NCBI GenBank assembly: GCA_018650285.1
Contig: JABIGF010000015.1
Span: 1-64,000, forward strand
DNA: 64,000 bases
Direction: 5' to 3'
Origin: Methanobacteriota archaeon
GTDB lineage: Archaea > Thermoplasmatota > Poseidoniia > Poseidoniales > Thalassarchaeaceae
Numbering within the stretch: the first letter of the stretch is position 1; each line of letters starts with the position of its first letter. Shown piece after piece: positions 4,990 through 54,545 of this stretch. The position numbers were made by a program, and so were the translations under genes. The notes beneath the pieces are model-generated. The model had not been told where the DNA came from. It worked only from the letters and a program-made list of their open reading frames with translations, and ran no database searches.

Positions 4990-7900
4990 ATGGCTAACAT
5001 AGTATACCTAGATTCATATGAAGAATCAGAGGTATTGTTTGATGGATTGTCTCAACCAGTTCGTAATTGGTTCATGGATAAATTCCCCGATTTTACTGCG
5101 CCTCAGAAGATGGCGATCCCATCAATTAGCGCAGGAGACAACCTGTTATTATGTAGCCCAACAGGAAGTGGAAAAACCCTTACTGCATTCTTGTCAATCA
5201 TAGATAAATTGATTCGAAAATCTCTTGATGGGACTTTGGAAAATAAAGTGTATTGCGTTTATATTTCTCCAATCAAAGCGTTGGCAAATGATATTCAGAA
5301 AAATTTGATTGAGCCATTAGCGGAAATAAAGGAGAGATTTCTGCCAGGCAGAGCAAAGGACATCAAAGTTGGATTGCGTACAGGTGACACTAGTCAATCT
5401 GAACGTCAAAAGATGTTGAGAAAACCACCTCATATATTGATTACTACACCAGAAAGCCTTGGTTTGGCATTAGCATCATCTAAATTTAGACCATTAATGA
5501 ATGAGTTGAATTGGATTATTCTTGACGAGTTGCACAGTTTAGTTCCCTCAAAAAGAGGAACTCTTCTCTCACTGACGATGGCTTTGTTAGATTCAGTAAT
5601 CACAACCCCAGTTCAACGAATTGGTATTTCTGCGACAATGGAGCCACTTGACAAAGTAGCTCAATTCTTAGTTCCTGCTGGCAATGAAGATGAAGAAGTA
5701 AAAATTGCAAAAATAAGTGGCGCCCGTGAATTAGATTTAGATATCATTTTGCCAAATCCAAGATTTGGTGACCCAACTTTTGACTATAAACAAATCTTGG
5801 ACGCGAATGTTGAAAAAATTCTCGACCTTGTTGAAGCGCATACTACAACAATTGTATTTGTGAATACAAGGAAAATGACAGAAGAGATTGTTCAGAAGTT
5901 AAGGCGACTTGCTGGCTGGGATGAAACTGCTATTGAAGCGCATCACGGATCAATGAACAAAGCAATTCGAAAGGATGTTGAACAGAGATTAAAACTTGGA
6001 GAATTGAGGTGTTGTGTATCTTCTTCGTCACTTGAACTTGGTATTGATATTGGTACAGTTGACATGGTTGTTCAACTTGGTTCACCAGGCAGTATCGCTA
6101 CTGCTCTACAGAGAATTGGGCGTGCAGGCCACCATGTGGGCGGTATTCCAAGGGCGAGATTCCTACCTACTGGGCCACACGACTTGGTTGAACTGGTTGC
6201 TTTGCAAGGCGCAATCATGTCTGGGGAAATGGACCTTCTCCTTTTCCCTGAAAATTCATTGGATGTACTAGCTCAATTTATGGTCGGTTTGACAATTGTC
6301 GGTGAACAAGACATCGATGAAGTGTTTGAATTAATCACTACAGCGTGGCCATATCGTTTTCTCCCATATGACGATTACATCGAAGTAATTGACATGTTAG
6401 AGGATGAAAAGCGATTGTGGGTTGATTGGGAAGAGAACACAATTGGTAAGCGCGGTTATTCTCAGATGATTTACTATACAAATCTTGGAACAATTTCACC
6501 TGATAACAATTATCTTGTTTTGAATACTGATGGTTCAATGATAGGTCAGTTGTCATCCTCATTCGTCTCTAGTGTTCGCCCTGGAGATGTTATTTTGCTG
6601 GGTGGTACGACATATCGTATTCAATCGATACAAGGTTCAAGAGTAAATGTCACTCCAGTGACTGGTTTCCGCCCTACCGTTCCATCTTGGTCTGGTGAAG
6701 CACTTTCACGTAGCGCTGAACTTTCTGCATCGGTGTTGAAATTACAGAAAGCGCTAATGTTGGCTTTGAGAAGACAACGAGATCCACGAAGACTTTTGGT
6801 GGAAGGATATGGTCTTTCAAGAAAAATCGCTGAGGCTGTTGCTCGATTTATGGAGTTGCACGTCGCTGAATCATTTGAGGTGCCAGCACCTAATAGAATC
6901 ATGATGGAACAGATTGTTGGAGGAATTACTACCTACATGGTAACAACATGTAGGGGTAGAGCATTCAACATGACACTTGGATACTTTTTTGCTGGTATTG
7001 CCTCAGCAAATGAAATCCATGTAAATGAGATTTCTTTCGATGAGAATGGATTCCTAATCAAGATGTCAGACGATATTGACCCTGCTGCATTCCCTGACGT
7101 CTTTGAAGGAGGCAATCATAGGGAAGTGATTGAGAGATATTTGATGGATACTCAATTATTTGCTAAGAGATTTCGTGAAGTGGCAGGGCGCAGTCTAATC
7201 ATCCCAAGACGAATTGGTGCTGACGAAGTATCGCCTCAGCAATTTCAGCAGAAAGCAGACGCATTATTGAAAGCGCACAGAGCAAAATCCGGTTCTCTAC
7301 TAATGAAGGAGGTTTTTAACGAAATTTTCCACCATGATTTGGATATGATTGGATTAAATCAATTTGTCAATGAAGTTGTTGAGGGAACTTCACGTATTCT
7401 TCACACTAGAGTCAAAGTTCCTTCGCCAATTGGTATGAATTTGTATATGTCTGCATTTGAAGACTTGTTATCAATGAGGACAAGGGCGTATCTAATCAAA
7501 GATATTGACCCTGAAATTCTACGCCGTCTGTTAGGTCAGCGTGCGTTAGCAACCCAACTTGATGGAGAGGAATTGCATGCCTATTATGGTGACAAAGTTG
7601 CAATTCCAAAGAATGCTGAGTCCCTTCTTGAAATGATGGAGATGGGCGGGGGATTAAACAAAGATCACGAGAATCCCCTCTACAAGGCAAAACTTGAAGG
7701 AATTGAAAAAGAGACAATTCGAGGTTGGGTTCGAGAGTTAATTGTCAATGAGGATATTATTAGAATAAAAGATACAGGCCATTCAGGGATTGATGGCAAA
7801 TGGTTCTCACGGAGAATGGGTGATATTCACGGCACTTTGGGTGTTCTTTCATCCCACCATACTGAAGAATTAGACGACCTTAGGAAATTATACCTTGGAG

Positions 7901-48456: not shown

Positions 48457-49683
48457 ATGAGTAGGCAGTCAGTAACCACGTGGACAACAACACGCGAAGA
48501 GGCTGGCCAGATCAATCAAAGAGGAGGAATCCCCACTATTTCCCTCAATGCCCATGGCATGGATGACACAGTAAAACAAATCTTAGAGAAGGTATTGCAA
48601 GGGTGTAGGATAACCACTTCTGAGGGCGAGGTGTTGTTCAATCAATGTGACCTGCCAACATTAGGTGCTGTAGCACAGCATCTCAAAGCGAGGAGATTTG
48701 GTGATAATATTTTTTACAATCGCAATCTACACATTAACCAGACAAATATTTGTGTCCTATCATGTAGATTCTGTGCTTTTCGTCGAGGGAGGAAATCGAG
48801 TGATGCTTACTCACTTTCAATTGAAGAATATATTTCAAGAATTATTCCCTTTGAACATTATATTTCGGAAGTTCATACAGTAGGGGGATTGCATCCTGAT
48901 TGGGGTTTAGATTACTATGAAGAATTATTCAAAGCGGTTAAACATAGATTTCCAAATTTGTTTATCAAGGCACTTTCAGCTGTTGAAATTAAGCATCTAT
49001 CTCAATTGACTGGATTATCTATTGAAACAGTATTATCTAAATTAAATGAGGCTGGCCTAGATACACTTCCTGGCGGAGGGGCAGAAATATTAGTTGATGA
49101 AGTGCGAGATAAAATTTGCAAAGGTAAAGAATCTAGCCAAGAATATCTAGATATTCACAAAGAAGCGCATTTACAAGGAATCCCCACTAACTGTACAATG
49201 TTATTTGGAACGGTTGAATCAGTATCACAACGCCTTACGCATTTAGATAAATTAAGGAAATTGCAAGATGAAACCAAGGGATTCCAATGCTTTGTGCCAT
49301 ATCCATTTTTACCCGACTCATCACGTCTTCTAGAAGCACAACTGGCTACTTCAAATGAGATACTACGTATGATCGCAATCTCTAGAATAATGTTGGATAA
49401 TATCCCTCACATCAAGGCGTATCGGATGAATTTGGGAGATAATATCGCTTCCCTAGCATTGTTACATGGTGCCGATGATATTGATGGTACAGTTAGTCAT
49501 GAAGAGATAATGCATCTAGCAGGTTCAAATGCGCCACTAGAAGATAGGGATACCAACCTAATTACCCTCATAGAATCCATTGGGGGGGTTGCAGTTGAGA
49601 GAAACACTGACTACACTCAATTCAATAATCAGAGAACTAACCGCCCTTCACGGCGTAAGGGATTACCGGTAGCACATAGTTGA
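48457..49683 (+). CDS. mqnE: Aminodeoxyfutalosine synthase (radical SAM)
   Basis: First radical step of the futalosine menaquinone pathway, adding a SAM-derived radical to 3-[(1-carboxyvinyl)oxy]benzoate. 408 residues; the [4Fe-4S] cysteines are C99, C103 and C106 (CVLSCRFC), followed by VGGLHPDWGLDYY and KALSAVEIKHL, which match MqnE more than MqnC (whose strand reads QGGLHP). MqnA follows directly, so the pair forms an operon. CofH and MqnC are the nearest alternatives. Confidence 0.9.
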   Translation: MSRQSVTTWTTTREEAGQINQRGGIPTISLNAHGMDDTVKQILEKVLQGCRITTSEGEVLFNQCDLPTLGAVAQHLKARRFGDNIFYNRNLHINQTNICVLSCRFCAFRRGRKSSDAYSLSIEEYISRIIPFEHYISEVHTVGGLHPDWGLDYYEELFKAVKHRFPNLFIKALSAVEIKHLSQLTGLSIETVLSKLNEAGLDTLPGGGAEILVDEVRDKICKGKESSQEYLDIHKEAHLQGIPTNCTMLFGTVESVSQRLTHLDKLRKLQDETKGFQCFVPYPFLPDSSRLLEAQLATSNEILRMIAISRIMLDNIPHIKAYRMNLGDNIASLALLHGADDIDGTVSHEEIMHLAGSNAPLEDRDTNLITLIESIGGVAVERNTDYTQFNNQRTNRPSRRKGLPVAHS

Positions 49684-49697
49684 GGGGAGGGGTTGTA

Positions 49698-50492
49698 TTG
49701 ACTAATTGGACAGAAGTAATTGGCCGGGTATCTTTCGTTAATTGCGACCCACTATTTCATACAATAAGCGATGGTTGGGCTGTATTACCTGCACCACCAG
49801 CCTGGTTAACTGGCCATTTATTGAAAAATGATTGCTTAGTTGCACCTATACCTGCTGCGGATTTTGCAGAACATATTGATGAACTTCTATTGTTGCCTGA
49901 CATTGGGATTGCATCTGATGGTAGCGTTGGCAGCGTTCTATTGTTTAGCAAGAAGGAATTGGCTGAAATCAAAGATATTGCAATGCCAACTGATTCATCA
50001 ACATCTAGAAAGTTAGCGTTATATCTTCTTGCTCAGAGAGGGATTACACCTGATGTTAGTGAAATGGGCCCAGACTTAGATGAAATGCTAGGAAGGTGTG
50101 ATTCTGCTCTTTTAATTGGTGACCGAGCACTAGATGAGGCACAGCGAAATCCAGATTATGTGAAAATGGATTTAGGATTAGAATGGAAGCAATTAACTGG
50201 TTTGCCAATGGTTTTTGGTGTATTTGCTGCATCCAAGAGTGCGCCAAAAAACAAACTAAAAAGCGCACATCAAGAACTATATTCCAATGTCACAAATTTC
50301 TATGAAAGTCAATTGATTAAAGAAAAAGTGATTGATGAAACATCAATGCGTAGCGGCTTTTCTAAATCGCGGGTAAGAGATTATTTTTCAGAGGTTACCA
50401 ATTTGTTGGATGGGTCATCTATTGCAGGCCTAGAAAAATTTCTGACTGAAGTGTGTGAAGTCAATTTGGAAATTGAATGGTTAGAAGTATAA
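49698..50492 (+). CDS. mqnA: Chorismate dehydratase
   Basis: Converts chorismate to 3-[(1-carboxyvinyl)oxy]benzoate, the first committed futalosine-pathway step. About 264 residues, periplasmic-binding-protein fold; N-terminal IGRVSFVNCDPLFH and the middle SALLIGDRALDEA are MqnA signatures. The start is taken as TTG at 49698, with GAGGGGAGGGG (49682-49692) just upstream as ribosome-binding site; an upstream TTG (49680) would overlap mqnE by 4 bases. Abuts the convergent propeller-protein gene at 50493. Confidence 0.9.
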   Translation: MTNWTEVIGRVSFVNCDPLFHTISDGWAVLPAPPAWLTGHLLKNDCLVAPIPAADFAEHIDELLLLPDIGIASDGSVGSVLLFSKKELAEIKDIAMPTDSSTSRKLALYLLAQRGITPDVSEMGPDLDEMLGRCDSALLIGDRALDEAQRNPDYVKMDLGLEWKQLTGLPMVFGVFAASKSAPKNKLKSAHQELYSNVTNFYESQLIKEKVIDETSMRSGFSKSRVRDYFSEVTNLLDGSSIAGLEKFLTEVCEVNLEIEWLEV

Positions 50493-52829
50493 TTACTTCT
50501 TTCTTCTCTTCACCTTTCTACGAGTTTTCTTATCTCCATCCGATGCGGTGGAAGTCTTTGTACCAGTCAACATGGACAATGCCTCGTCCATTTTTTCATC
50601 AGTTGAAGCTTCCTTAGATTCTCTTTCTTTTGTTTCGGCAGCAATTTCCTCAGCAATATCCAAGGTGTCTTTTTCTTCATCATGGTACTCTTTCACCTCT
50701 CCATAAGGGTCTTCTGCGCTTGGATCATCTGAATCCCAATAAGCGCCATGTTCCGAATAATCCCATTCTTTACCCTCAGGTGCATCTCCTGATTGAATAG
50801 ATGAACCGGGGGTCTTACGAACCCGCCTAACCGGGCGTTTGTCAGGAGTTGAGGTTGGTTGTTTCCTTCTTGAAACAGTCTGAGGGGGTTGGAATGGTTG
50901 TGGCCTTTTAGAAGATGTTCTTCTATCTGGGGGCCTTTCAGGTTGAGGGCGTTTTGATTTTCTTCTTTTGGTAACAACATTTTCGTACTCTTCTTCATCA
51001 TCAAAATCAAAAAGATTTTGATTTCTTCGTCGTTCAATTACAAGATATAGGACGACAATAGAGATGATAATTAATGATGGTATCCAAAAATATTCAATCA
51101 ACCAAGATATTGACAGGTCAACAATGGTTGGGTCTGGGGCAGGTAGTAAATCTACATCAATTTGAAAACTTGATTCAGTTGAGAAAGTTGGAGAATCATA
51201 GTATATCAAGTCGCTTTCAAAGAAGACGGATATGGTAAAAGGTGATGATGGGGCAATTTGTGCAGTAGTATGTTGAGGTGGTTCAATGCTTGGATCAACA
51301 GTCATGTTGAAGGGCCTATCGACATCGTTTGCTAAATTAATTTCAATAAACCATCGTAATTGAATTCTAGTTTTTGAATCAACACGCTCTGTATCACTTA
51401 ATCCCAACTTTGCATCGCACCATACAGTTGATGACATTACTGCTGAATTATTTATTTTTACAGCATCCATCCATGCTTGAGATAATTCCCCCTCATTAGT
51501 CCCTCCGCACAATACTTTCTCCATTCTTGTTGCTTCACCTGTATCAACATAAGAGTCCGCGTGTACTGAAGATGAGGCTAATTGCCTAATTGGGGCGCTT
51601 TGACTGGCATTTAACTGGTATCGGTCTTCAATCGTTATTTTATCTCCTTGAATTTGAATTGAGACCTGTCTAACTAGATCTTTGTCAGGATGTAAACTAC
51701 ATTCAGTAACTTCAGGACATGAGAACTCAAAGTTATCGCCAATCCCATCACCATCATCATCACTGTCATAATTGTCTGGAGTTCCGTCTCCATCTGTATC
51801 TACCCCTGGTAAACCTGCAAATGGTTGCCAAGGCGTCTCCTTGAAAATAGTGATATATCCGGTATTTGATGAAACAATAAATTCTGCTTCAGCGGGGGCT
51901 TTAGCAAATTTTGAAACCTGTTGCCCAAGAAACAATGAATTTATCACTTGGTAATTTGAGCTATTGAAAATCAAAAGAGTTGGGGATGACGCCTGAACCA
52001 ATACCCACAATTCTTCTCCAGTTGAATCCCATTCTAATTGAATACCATCGGCTTCAATACTAAGTGAACTAATGTATTCACCACCAGGTAGACTACGAAC
52101 CTGAAGGAGAGAGTCTGCTATCCATGCCAATTGAGTTCCATCGGGTGATATAGAACAATCTGTAATACTAAATTGGACGTCCCATGAAAAGTCTGGTGTA
52201 ATCGTAGTTCGGTTCCAAAGGTGGACAAAACCATCTTTACCTCCAGTCACTAATTGTTGCCCATTTGGTGAATGGTCAAGACAAGTAACATCGTCTGTAT
52301 GTACGCCATCATAGGTATTTACGGCATTTGTTGAATCTGAAATATAATACTCAGCAGCACCATTGTTTTCAATAGAAGAAGCAAACAATTCGCTATTTGG
52401 TAACATGCTAATATCAGTGACTTCTTTTCCATCTTCATTCAAACTAGTTCTTTCCCATGACACAGTATTGTAAATGGCAATAGACATGCTACTGCTATAG
52501 GGGCTATCTAAACCAACTAATAATGATGAATCATCATTTGAAAAAGTTAAGGAAAGTATGGTGCTACCTACATCAACATAAGTGACAAATGTTCTAGAAC
52601 TAGAATCAATAATTGCAAATTTATTCAAATACGCGACTGCCATCAATTGGCCATCATTTGAATATGACAGAGAATCTGAGCCTGATAATGAATAAGGATT
52701 AGAAAGAATGCCACTTAGAGGGATATTCTCTTCTGATGAAGCAGATGCAAATGGCAAAGGGATAGATGACAATAGTAACCCTAGCACGACTAGAATAATC
52801 GCAACAACCGATTTAGATACCCTTGGCAT
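50493..52829 (-). CDS. Membrane-anchored beta-propeller surface protein with calcium-binding repeat and basic tail
   Basis: About 778 residues. N-terminal signal sequence or anchor (VVAIILVVLGLLLSSIPLPFA), then WD40-like propeller repeats (for example QQLVTGGKDGFVHLWNR), a short Asp-rich repeat like thrombospondin type 3 (DTDGDGTPDNYDSDDDGDG), a beta domain, one membrane helix (IPSLIIISIVVLYLVI) and a cytoplasmic tail of about 180 residues rich in Pro, Arg and Lys that ends RRKVKRRKK. Not a PGF-CTERM protein. The frame opens at GTG 52886, which overlaps the next gene's stop by 4 bases; ATG 52829 gives a better signal peptide. Confidence 0.75.
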   Translation of the reverse strand: MPRVSKSVVAIILVVLGLLLSSIPLPFASASSEENIPLSGILSNPYSLSGSDSLSYSNDGQLMAVAYLNKFAIIDSSSRTFVTYVDVGSTILSLTFSNDDSSLLVGLDSPYSSSMSIAIYNTVSWERTSLNEDGKEVTDISMLPNSELFASSIENNGAAEYYISDSTNAVNTYDGVHTDDVTCLDHSPNGQQLVTGGKDGFVHLWNRTTITPDFSWDVQFSITDCSISPDGTQLAWIADSLLQVRSLPGGEYISSLSIEADGIQLEWDSTGEELWVLVQASSPTLLIFNSSNYQVINSLFLGQQVSKFAKAPAEAEFIVSSNTGYITIFKETPWQPFAGLPGVDTDGDGTPDNYDSDDDGDGIGDNFEFSCPEVTECSLHPDKDLVRQVSIQIQGDKITIEDRYQLNASQSAPIRQLASSSVHADSYVDTGEATRMEKVLCGGTNEGELSQAWMDAVKINNSAVMSSTVWCDAKLGLSDTERVDSKTRIQLRWFIEINLANDVDRPFNMTVDPSIEPPQHTTAQIAPSSPFTISVFFESDLIYYDSPTFSTESSFQIDVDLLPAPDPTIVDLSISWLIEYFWIPSLIIISIVVLYLVIERRRNQNLFDFDDEEEYENVVTKRRKSKRPQPERPPDRRTSSKRPQPFQPPQTVSRRKQPTSTPDKRPVRRVRKTPGSSIQSGDAPEGKEWDYSEHGAYWDSDDPSAEDPYGEVKEYHDEEKDTLDIAEEIAAETKERESKEASTDEKMDEALSMLTGTKTSTASDGDKKTRRKVKRRKK

Positions 52830-52882
52830 CAAGTCGCCGATACCGTCACTTATCAAAGAACTATCCTTATAGATGTTTGATT

Positions 52883-53377
52883 TCACTCATATTCAAAGGA
52901 TTCACTAGTTATCCAGTTTAACAAATCTAACGCTACTTCACAAGATTGTGACACGACGATTGATGGGTCTGATTCAAATTCTTCTAGGGCCGGTCTTGCC
53001 TTTTGGTCACCAATCGCACCAAGAGCTTCTGCGGCTTCATGACGGACAATTGCATCCTCTTCTATGTCTGAAAGTCTGTCTATTAATGCAGGTACTGCAT
53101 GTGGGTTTTGCATCTGCCCCAATACATATGCAATTTCATGCTTAAGTAAAGCCGATGAACTTGAGAATCCATCAATTAATCCATCAACTGCATCTTCACC
53201 TTCAATATTTCTCAATGAAAAAAGTGCCCTCATTCGAATAAACATTCTTTCATCTTCATCACATAATGTGGATGATAGATCAGATATTGATTTTTCATTA
53301 CCTGCTGGAGCAGGGTCAATCGAACCAAAACGGCTTGGTTCGAGTTGCTTGAAATCTAATTCTTCTTGAGACATCAT
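52883..53377 (-). CDS. Half-length deoxyhypusine hydroxylase-like HEAT-repeat protein
   Basis: 164 residues of HEAT repeats. It carries HE motifs at H80-E81 (ALLKHEIAYVLGQMQ) and H113-E114 (IVRHEAAEALGAIG), the patterns of the diiron-binding repeats of eukaryotic DOHH, which has two such pairs in about 300 residues. The linker-like SIDPAPAGNE and the C-terminal SCEVALDLL also resemble DOHH. DOHH hydroxylates deoxyhypusine on eIF5A. One pair per chain would need a homodimer to build the site. ATG overlaps the mqnD stop (TAATG). A generic PBS-lyase HEAT protein is the alternative. Confidence 0.75.
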   Translation of the reverse strand: MMSQEELDFKQLEPSRFGSIDPAPAGNEKSISDLSSTLCDEDERMFIRMRALFSLRNIEGEDAVDGLIDGFSSSSALLKHEIAYVLGQMQNPHAVPALIDRLSDIEEDAIVRHEAAEALGAIGDQKARPALEEFESDPSIVVSQSCEVALDLLNWITSESFEYE

Positions 53378-54234
53378 TAAGCACCTATGAATTTAATTTT
53401 TTGAGGATCAAAATCAGATTGAATCATACCAATTTGTATGCCTTCATCCAAAAATTGGCGCACACTTGTTCTTCCATCATCACCATAATCAATTGTTCTA
53501 GAATTGACATACATTTGAACAAACTTAGAATTGGTTTCTTCATCAATTCCTCTGCCCCATTGTCTAGCAAACTCTAGTGCCCCTTCAGGATTATCTATTG
53601 CTACCTCTATGCTTTGTTTAACCCACTCTGTGATTTTCTCGCATAGTTCCTCACCTAGGTCATTTCGTACAACATTTCCACCTAATGGTAATGGGAGCCC
53701 TGCTGTTCTTTCATTCCACCAAATCCCTAAATCTAGTAAAAGATTCATGCCGTGCGATTCCCAAGTTAATTGCCCCTCATGGATAATTACTCCACTATCA
53801 AATTCTCCACTTTCAATTCTAGGCATTATTTCATCAAATGGAACAATAACTGTTTCAACATCTCCAACTGCCATTTTTAGGGCAAGATGTGCTGATGTTT
53901 TCTCACCAGGTATTGCAATTGGTTTAGCACACGCCTCCTCAAGTGTCATCTGTTTGTAACTGACTAGCATAGGACCGTAACCCTCGCCCATACTTGCACC
54001 GCAATTCATTAGTGTGTAATTATCTGCAATCAGTGGAAACGCGTGAATACTAACAGCACTTACTTCATATTCCTCAGCCATCGCTTTTTCGTTCAATGTT
54101 TCAATATCTAACAATACATGTTCAAACTTGAAACCAGGTGTATCAATTAATCCAGTAGTTAATGCATGGAACATAAACGCATCGTCAGGGTCTGGAGAAT
54201 GGCCTACTCGGACTATACGGGTTGCTTCGGTCAT
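53377..54234 (-). CDS. mqnD: 1,4-dihydroxy-6-naphthoate synthase
   Basis: Last ring-forming step of the futalosine pathway, acting on cyclic dehypoxanthine futalosine. About 285 residues with the GHSPDPDDAFMFHAL N terminus, SVHAFP-type SIHAFPLIADNY and ALKMAVGD region of MqnD. The ATG at 54234 is chosen for the family N terminus (open frame to 54315). It is separated from mqnE-mqnA by two unrelated genes and transcribed in the opposite direction. MqnB and MqnC are not in the window. Confidence 0.9.
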   Translation of the reverse strand: MTEATRIVRVGHSPDPDDAFMFHALTTGLIDTPGFKFEHVLLDIETLNEKAMAEEYEVSAVSIHAFPLIADNYTLMNCGASMGEGYGPMLVSYKQMTLEEACAKPIAIPGEKTSAHLALKMAVGDVETVIVPFDEIMPRIESGEFDSGVIIHEGQLTWESHGMNLLLDLGIWWNERTAGLPLPLGGNVVRNDLGEELCEKITEWVKQSIEVAIDNPEGALEFARQWGRGIDEETNSKFVQMYVNSRTIDYGDDGRTSVRQFLDEGIQIGMIQSDFDPQKIKFIGA

Positions 54235-54350
54235 GGACTGCGCGACGGCGATTTGGTTGTGAACCTTATGCATTGGTAATTTCGTAATTAGTAAGCGCTC
54301 AAGCAGTAGCCTCAAAGACTACTTTCTCCCGCCCTAGTCATAGTGAGAAC

Positions 54351-54545
54351 ATGCCGGATGTGTCAAGACTAGGAATTCATCAGGGTCAAATCGGGCCTAT
54401 CTGTGATTATTGCGGGGCGCGATTGACTTTTGGACAATCAATTCCCGTTGATAAAAAATATGCGTGCTATGAATGCTACCAAAAGGAAACGGGCGTTTCA
54501 TCTTCAACTGAAGGAAAATCGGTCCAAGGCCTAACATTGGAATAA
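54351..54545 (+). CDS. Small zinc-finger protein
   Basis: 64 residues with a CxxC...CxxC pair (CDYCGARL, CYECYQK) that forms a likely zinc site; the rest is short and polar. ATG start; 45 bases before priS and divergent from mqnD. Function unknown, though co-transcription with priS is possible. Confidence 0.6.
   Translation: MPDVSRLGIHQGQIGPICDYCGARLTFGQSIPVDKKYACYECYQKETGVSSSTEGKSVQGLTLE

Follow-up and report, generated by a model that had tools for sequence, protein, structure and literature searches.

The window, by which we mean the whole 64,000-nucleotide stretch of DNA that was analysed, carries a real gene for a half-size homologue of deoxyhypusine hydroxylase (DOHH), referred to here as half-DOHH, together with two genes for PF02621 proteins (Table 1). 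The two His-Glu (HE) pairs of half-DOHH, at residues 80–81 and 113–114, lie within SALLKHEIAYVLGQMQ and VRHEAAEALGAIG. An earlier note, made from the sequence alone, had pointed to these pairs, a SIDPAPA linker and a SCEVALD tail, and all of them are present where it placed them. The TAA stop codon of the upstream MqnD-like gene overlaps the half-DOHH start codon (TAATG). Beside the half-DOHH gene, positions 50493–52886 encode a beta-propeller protein of 797 aa that contains a DTDGDGTPDNYDSDDDGDGIGD stretch, carries a transmembrane-like segment at its C terminus and belongs to a family that occurs at many related loci. Positions 54351–54545 encode a 64-aa protein with two CxxC pairs and no Pfam match, which is kept near the DOHH/primase region and belongs to a cluster of 57 loci.

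Table 1 Position and strand of the half-DOHH gene, its motifs and the two PF02621 genes in the window
Feature	Coordinates	Strand	Evidence
Half-size DOHH-like gene	52883..53377	(-)	ORF 53377->52883, ATG start, 164 aa; DOHH homology; family dN/dS median 0.07
SIDPAP motif, residues 19-24	53306..53323	(-)	Alignment; counterpart of the SVDPAP linker before the human DOHH C-half
First His-Glu motif, H80-E81	53135..53140	(-)	Aligned to human H56-E57 and H207-E208
Second His-Glu motif, H113-E114	53036..53041	(-)	Aligned to human H89-E90 and H240-E241
SCEVALD tail, residues 145-151	52925..52945	(-)	Same in the human C-half
PF02621 menaquinone-biosynthesis protein (MqnD-like), upstream neighbour	53377..54315	(-)	E 1e-68
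Second PF02621 protein (MqnA-like), nearby	49680..50492	(+)	E 2e-46

Pfam assigned half-DOHH to HEAT_2 and HEAT_PBS only, and a search of NCBIfam returned no family over its cut-off, so both libraries would leave the protein as a HEAT-repeat protein. These annotations are what supports the first rival reading, in which the protein is a generic scaffold of HEAT repeats (PBS-lyase-like) and resembles DOHH only through those repeats. Comparison of half-DOHH with all PDB chains by phmmer ranked human DOHH (4d4z) first, with an E-value of 4e-68; the two human halves scored 113 and 117 bits, each covering nearly the whole query, and among the non-DOHH proteins no single stretch shown scored above 43 bits, a value reached by a designed alphaRep fusion. 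A family profile of 50 rows gave the human halves 160.6 and 186.4 bits, whereas the highest-ranked non-DOHH protein had no stretch above 69.9 bits. Pairwise BLASTP aligned half-DOHH without gaps to both human halves, at 46% identity over 147 residues for the C-half, beginning at the SVDPAP linker, and at 43% identity over 136 residues for the N-half. The human sequence used for the pairwise and tree work matches all of the human residues shown in the PDB search output.

The scores within archaeal genomes also speak against a generic scaffold. Across 59 related genomes, intact half-DOHH proteins scored approximately 234–268 bits against 22–27 bits for other HEAT proteins, so that family members outscored the generic HEAT proteins of the same genomes about tenfold, and the only scores in between came from a few truncated or stop-containing (broken) copies. 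The weak-scoring HEAT proteins that we read from the same phylum were without paired HE motifs.

Structure prediction of half-DOHH gave a model of eight helices, which form four HEAT repeats, with a mean pLDDT of 91. Foldseek placed 4d4z at the top for this model (r.m.s.d. 1.3 Å over 145–147 columns, TM 0.85 by query length), with the runners-up far behind at a TM of about 0.66. Generic HEAT and PBS-lyase proteins (alphaRep, YibA, CpcE and MTH187) have the HEAT-repeat fold in common with half-DOHH but score far lower, with single-sequence stretches of at most 43 bits and a TM of about 0.66 or less. That the window protein is homologous to one half of DOHH is essentially certain, and the generic-scaffold reading, refuted as to homology, is all but excluded. 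The earlier note had claimed a resemblance to one half of eukaryotic DOHH, linker included, and this held for both sequence and fold; it had also named an outcome that would refute the claim, namely best hits to generic PBS-lyase HEAT proteins with no preference for DOHH, and that outcome did not materialize, DOHH being the clear best match by either measure.

Human DOHH holds its two irons through H56, H89, E90, H207, H240 and E241, and binds the deoxyhypusine side chain through E57, E90, E208 and E241 together with two glycines (PMC9117371). In the alignment the archaeal HE residues correspond to these iron ligands and substrate-binding glutamates, and H80, E81, H113 and E114 are invariant among 60 archaeal sequences. 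The same 60 sequences also show no variation at S75, L77, G87, Q88, V111, R112, E117 and G120, or at D21 and P22 of SIDPAP.

Human DOHH (PDB 4D4Z) and yeast Lia1 share with the window protein the HE motifs, the SVDPAP linker and SCEVALD, and both halves of the human enzyme match it gaplessly at 43–46% identity. The eukaryotic enzymes differ in size, however, at approximately 300 aa against approximately 160 aa, and have eight HEAT repeats and four HE motifs per chain, whereas the archaeal protein has four repeats and two HE motifs and would need to form a dimer to reach four. By a standard under which one chain carries all eight repeats and all four HE motifs, half-DOHH, with a single gene copy in the genome, does not qualify; we therefore class it as a half-size homologue whose function is probably that of DOHH, and not as a standard member.

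The half-size form is a stable family and not a fragment. Half-DOHH was found in 192 of the 293 sampled genomes of the window's class, with a length of approximately 160 aa and as a single copy in nearly all of them, and pairwise dN/dS within the family (median 0.07, maximum 0.20) indicates purifying selection. A full-length DOHH that has been truncated or broken is ruled out by the recurring length in approximately 190 genomes and by the purifying selection; the family is half-size throughout. Locus names point to Candidatus Thalassarchaeaceae (Marine Group IIb) as the window's own family. Outside the class, half-size copies with approximately 40–52% identity occur in eight genomes from five other Thermoplasmatota families. 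Two longer frames, L063 (666 aa) and L066 (320 aa), were read as stop-free GC-rich upstream stretches, and fusions are not shown.

A motif scan of one genome per species for 84,980 species yielded 244 relatives. We ranked these by likeness to human DOHH and kept the best 80, which, by their record titles, all come from Thermoplasmatota or marine euryarchaeota except for one contaminant. Because the scan demands an exact match to either of two conserved motifs and was limited to these 80, more distant DOHH proteins elsewhere are not excluded. The exception, at positions 5001–5848 of L072, a Verrucomicrobiaceae MAG contig, is the sole full-length match among the 80 and would be a bacterial DOHH; its exons are split by introns, and we read it as a likely eukaryotic contaminant. 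No viral copies of half-DOHH were found in IMG/VR with two queries, and none were found in the plasmid collection.

In eukaryotes DOHH completes the hypusine modification of translation factor 5A. The window's genome also encodes two other components of the hypusine pathway, a deoxyhypusine synthase (DHS) that scores over the NCBIfam equivalog cut-off and carries the EAISWGKI active-site stretch, and an archaeal factor 5A (aIF5A) with its target lysine in SKPGKHGSAK; the half-DOHH gene adjoins neither of them. A second DHS-like protein (L007, G000:C17:97137-98036) is closest to the NCBIfam homospermidine biosynthesis proteins but falls below the cut-off. PF01564 spermidine synthase was not found in this 88.6%-complete genome, so the donor for deoxyhypusine is uncertain. 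An agmatinase-family gene is present, and the donor could possibly be supplied through agmatine, by the route described for Haloferax (PMC5178350), or be taken up.

According to papers of 2012, 2016 and 2018, no archaeal DOHH orthologue was known, although hypusine had been reported in some archaea (PMC3306375, PMC5178350, PMC6105217), among them several Crenarchaea for which no enzyme is known (PMC5178350, PMC6105217). The remark in the earlier note that archaea are usually said to lack DOHH and to stop at deoxyhypusine needs a qualification: the lack of a known archaeal DOHH agrees with the literature, but the literature does not hold that all of them stop at deoxyhypusine, given the hypusine reported in Crenarchaea (PMC5178350, PMC6105217). 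In a control search, Sulfolobus acidocaldarius, in which hypusine is reported, had no HEAT_2 match, and the half-DOHH family is therefore probably not the explanation of crenarchaeal hypusine. The closest known archaeal systems, the Sulfolobus DHS and the agmatine-based DHS with agmatinase of Haloferax, resemble the window's genome, which also has DHS and aIF5A; they differ in that no DOHH is known for them (PMC5178350, PMC6105217), whereas the window's genome encodes a protein homologous to that second enzyme.

DOHH requires O2, and aerobic hosts would therefore be expected. This expectation is met, indirectly, outside the window's class, where COX1 (haem-copper oxidase) is present in all eight sampled half-DOHH carriers against 31 of the 141 genomes overall. 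The association has a Fisher p of 2.5e-6, uncorrected for kinship, and of approximately 0.001 when counted by families.

We consider it likely that half-DOHH acts as a homodimeric, O2-dependent DOHH that makes hypusine on aIF5A; dimerisation, iron binding, catalysis and the substrate are all inferred. In this model, two identical four-repeat subunits would face one another in the way that the N-half faces the C-half in the eukaryotic enzyme, and H80, H113 and E114 from each subunit would give a dimer with two irons, one per subunit. The diiron dimer is predicted to bind O2 as a bridging peroxide, with E81 of each subunit, E114 and G87 gripping the deoxyhypusine side chain. DHS would act first, and the dimer would then hydroxylate deoxyhypusine to hypusine on aIF5A. 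Weighing against this model are the loss of the gene from several oxidase-bearing Marine Group II lineages, its separation from the DHS and aIF5A genes, and the lack of a PF01564 match. The earlier note had proposed a single-half, homodimeric DOHH with four HE motifs; the half-size part of that proposal held, and the homodimer remains inferred.

Two further readings would keep the chemistry and change the substrate. In the first, half-DOHH is a hydroxylase of the DOHH type whose target is a different protein or a different lysine modification. In its favour, the gene is unlinked to those for DHS and aIF5A and is dispensable in some lineages. Against it, both HE motifs, the glutamates assigned to substrate binding and the glycine are invariant, and DHS and aIF5A are encoded in the same genome; we regard this reading as very unlikely.

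In the second, a diiron hydroxylase of the DOHH fold has been recruited to menaquinone metabolism, with a small-molecule substrate in place of aIF5A. This reading rests on the gene neighbourhood. At most Marine Group II loci, in both families, half-DOHH lies directly after the PF02621 (MqnD-like) gene, whose stop it overlaps in the window; the second PF02621 gene and a gene that looks radical-SAM-like by eye are nearby. However, the two Marine Group II genomes G047 and G063 retain both PF02621 genes with half-DOHH cleanly missing between them, and, conversely, G325, G345 and G406 carry DOHH but gave no match to PF02621. Around the DOHH genes of six genomes from outside the class, ten proteins were scanned and none was a PF02621 protein, although one of these loci, L065, has a polyprenyl synthetase in its vicinity and gene calling in this GC-rich DNA was rough. 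Half-DOHH moreover retains the residues to which deoxyhypusine binding is assigned. Because the presence of half-DOHH and that of the mqn genes are uncoupled in both directions, a role in menaquinone metabolism is disfavoured and appears unlikely, and a conserved location is the best reading of the neighbourhood.

Within Marine Group II, inheritance of half-DOHH in the tree follows the two families of the group. The eukaryotic C-halves group weakly with the Marine Group II proteins, but the AU test does not reject a tree in which both eukaryotic halves form one clade (p 0.305). As the tree rests on approximately 160 columns and only two eukaryotes, it cannot tell duplication of an archaeal half from transfer of a eukaryotic C-half, and the suggestion in the earlier note that the half-size protein is the ancestral form is left undecided by it. 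A bolder reading is that the archaeal homodimeric half is the surviving form behind eukaryotic DOHH, which would have arisen by tandem duplication and fusion, and that a true O2-dependent hypusine pathway existed in archaea before the eukaryotic enzyme; the tree does not decide this, and we lean slightly against it. The full-text literature searched held no report of half-DOHH in Marine Group II; bioRxiv and most subscription papers were outside the scope of that search, and priority is not proven. A half-size DOHH conserved in widespread surface-ocean archaea is a concrete candidate for expression and assay, which would test whether two identical HEAT halves can build a diiron hydroxylase and whether the eukaryotic enzyme arose by duplication and fusion of such a half-size protein.

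The gene is absent from several Marine Group II lineages that retain the terminal oxidase, and its loss in these oxidase-keeping lineages means that it is not essential. In the sampled genomes of family f3 of the same class (G001, G003, G005, G007 and G009) the oxidase is present, and neither half-DOHH nor PF02621 genes are. Loss has left different traces elsewhere. In G047 and G063 (L152 and L153) it took the form of a clean deletion; stop-containing remnants persist at the usual place in G034 (L155, approximately positions 1226–1400) and G071 (G071:C22:31647-31817). In G028 (L154, approximately positions 2081–2165), the N-terminal MSEDKPDTDEFGSVDPAPPS motif runs on into a different helical protein.
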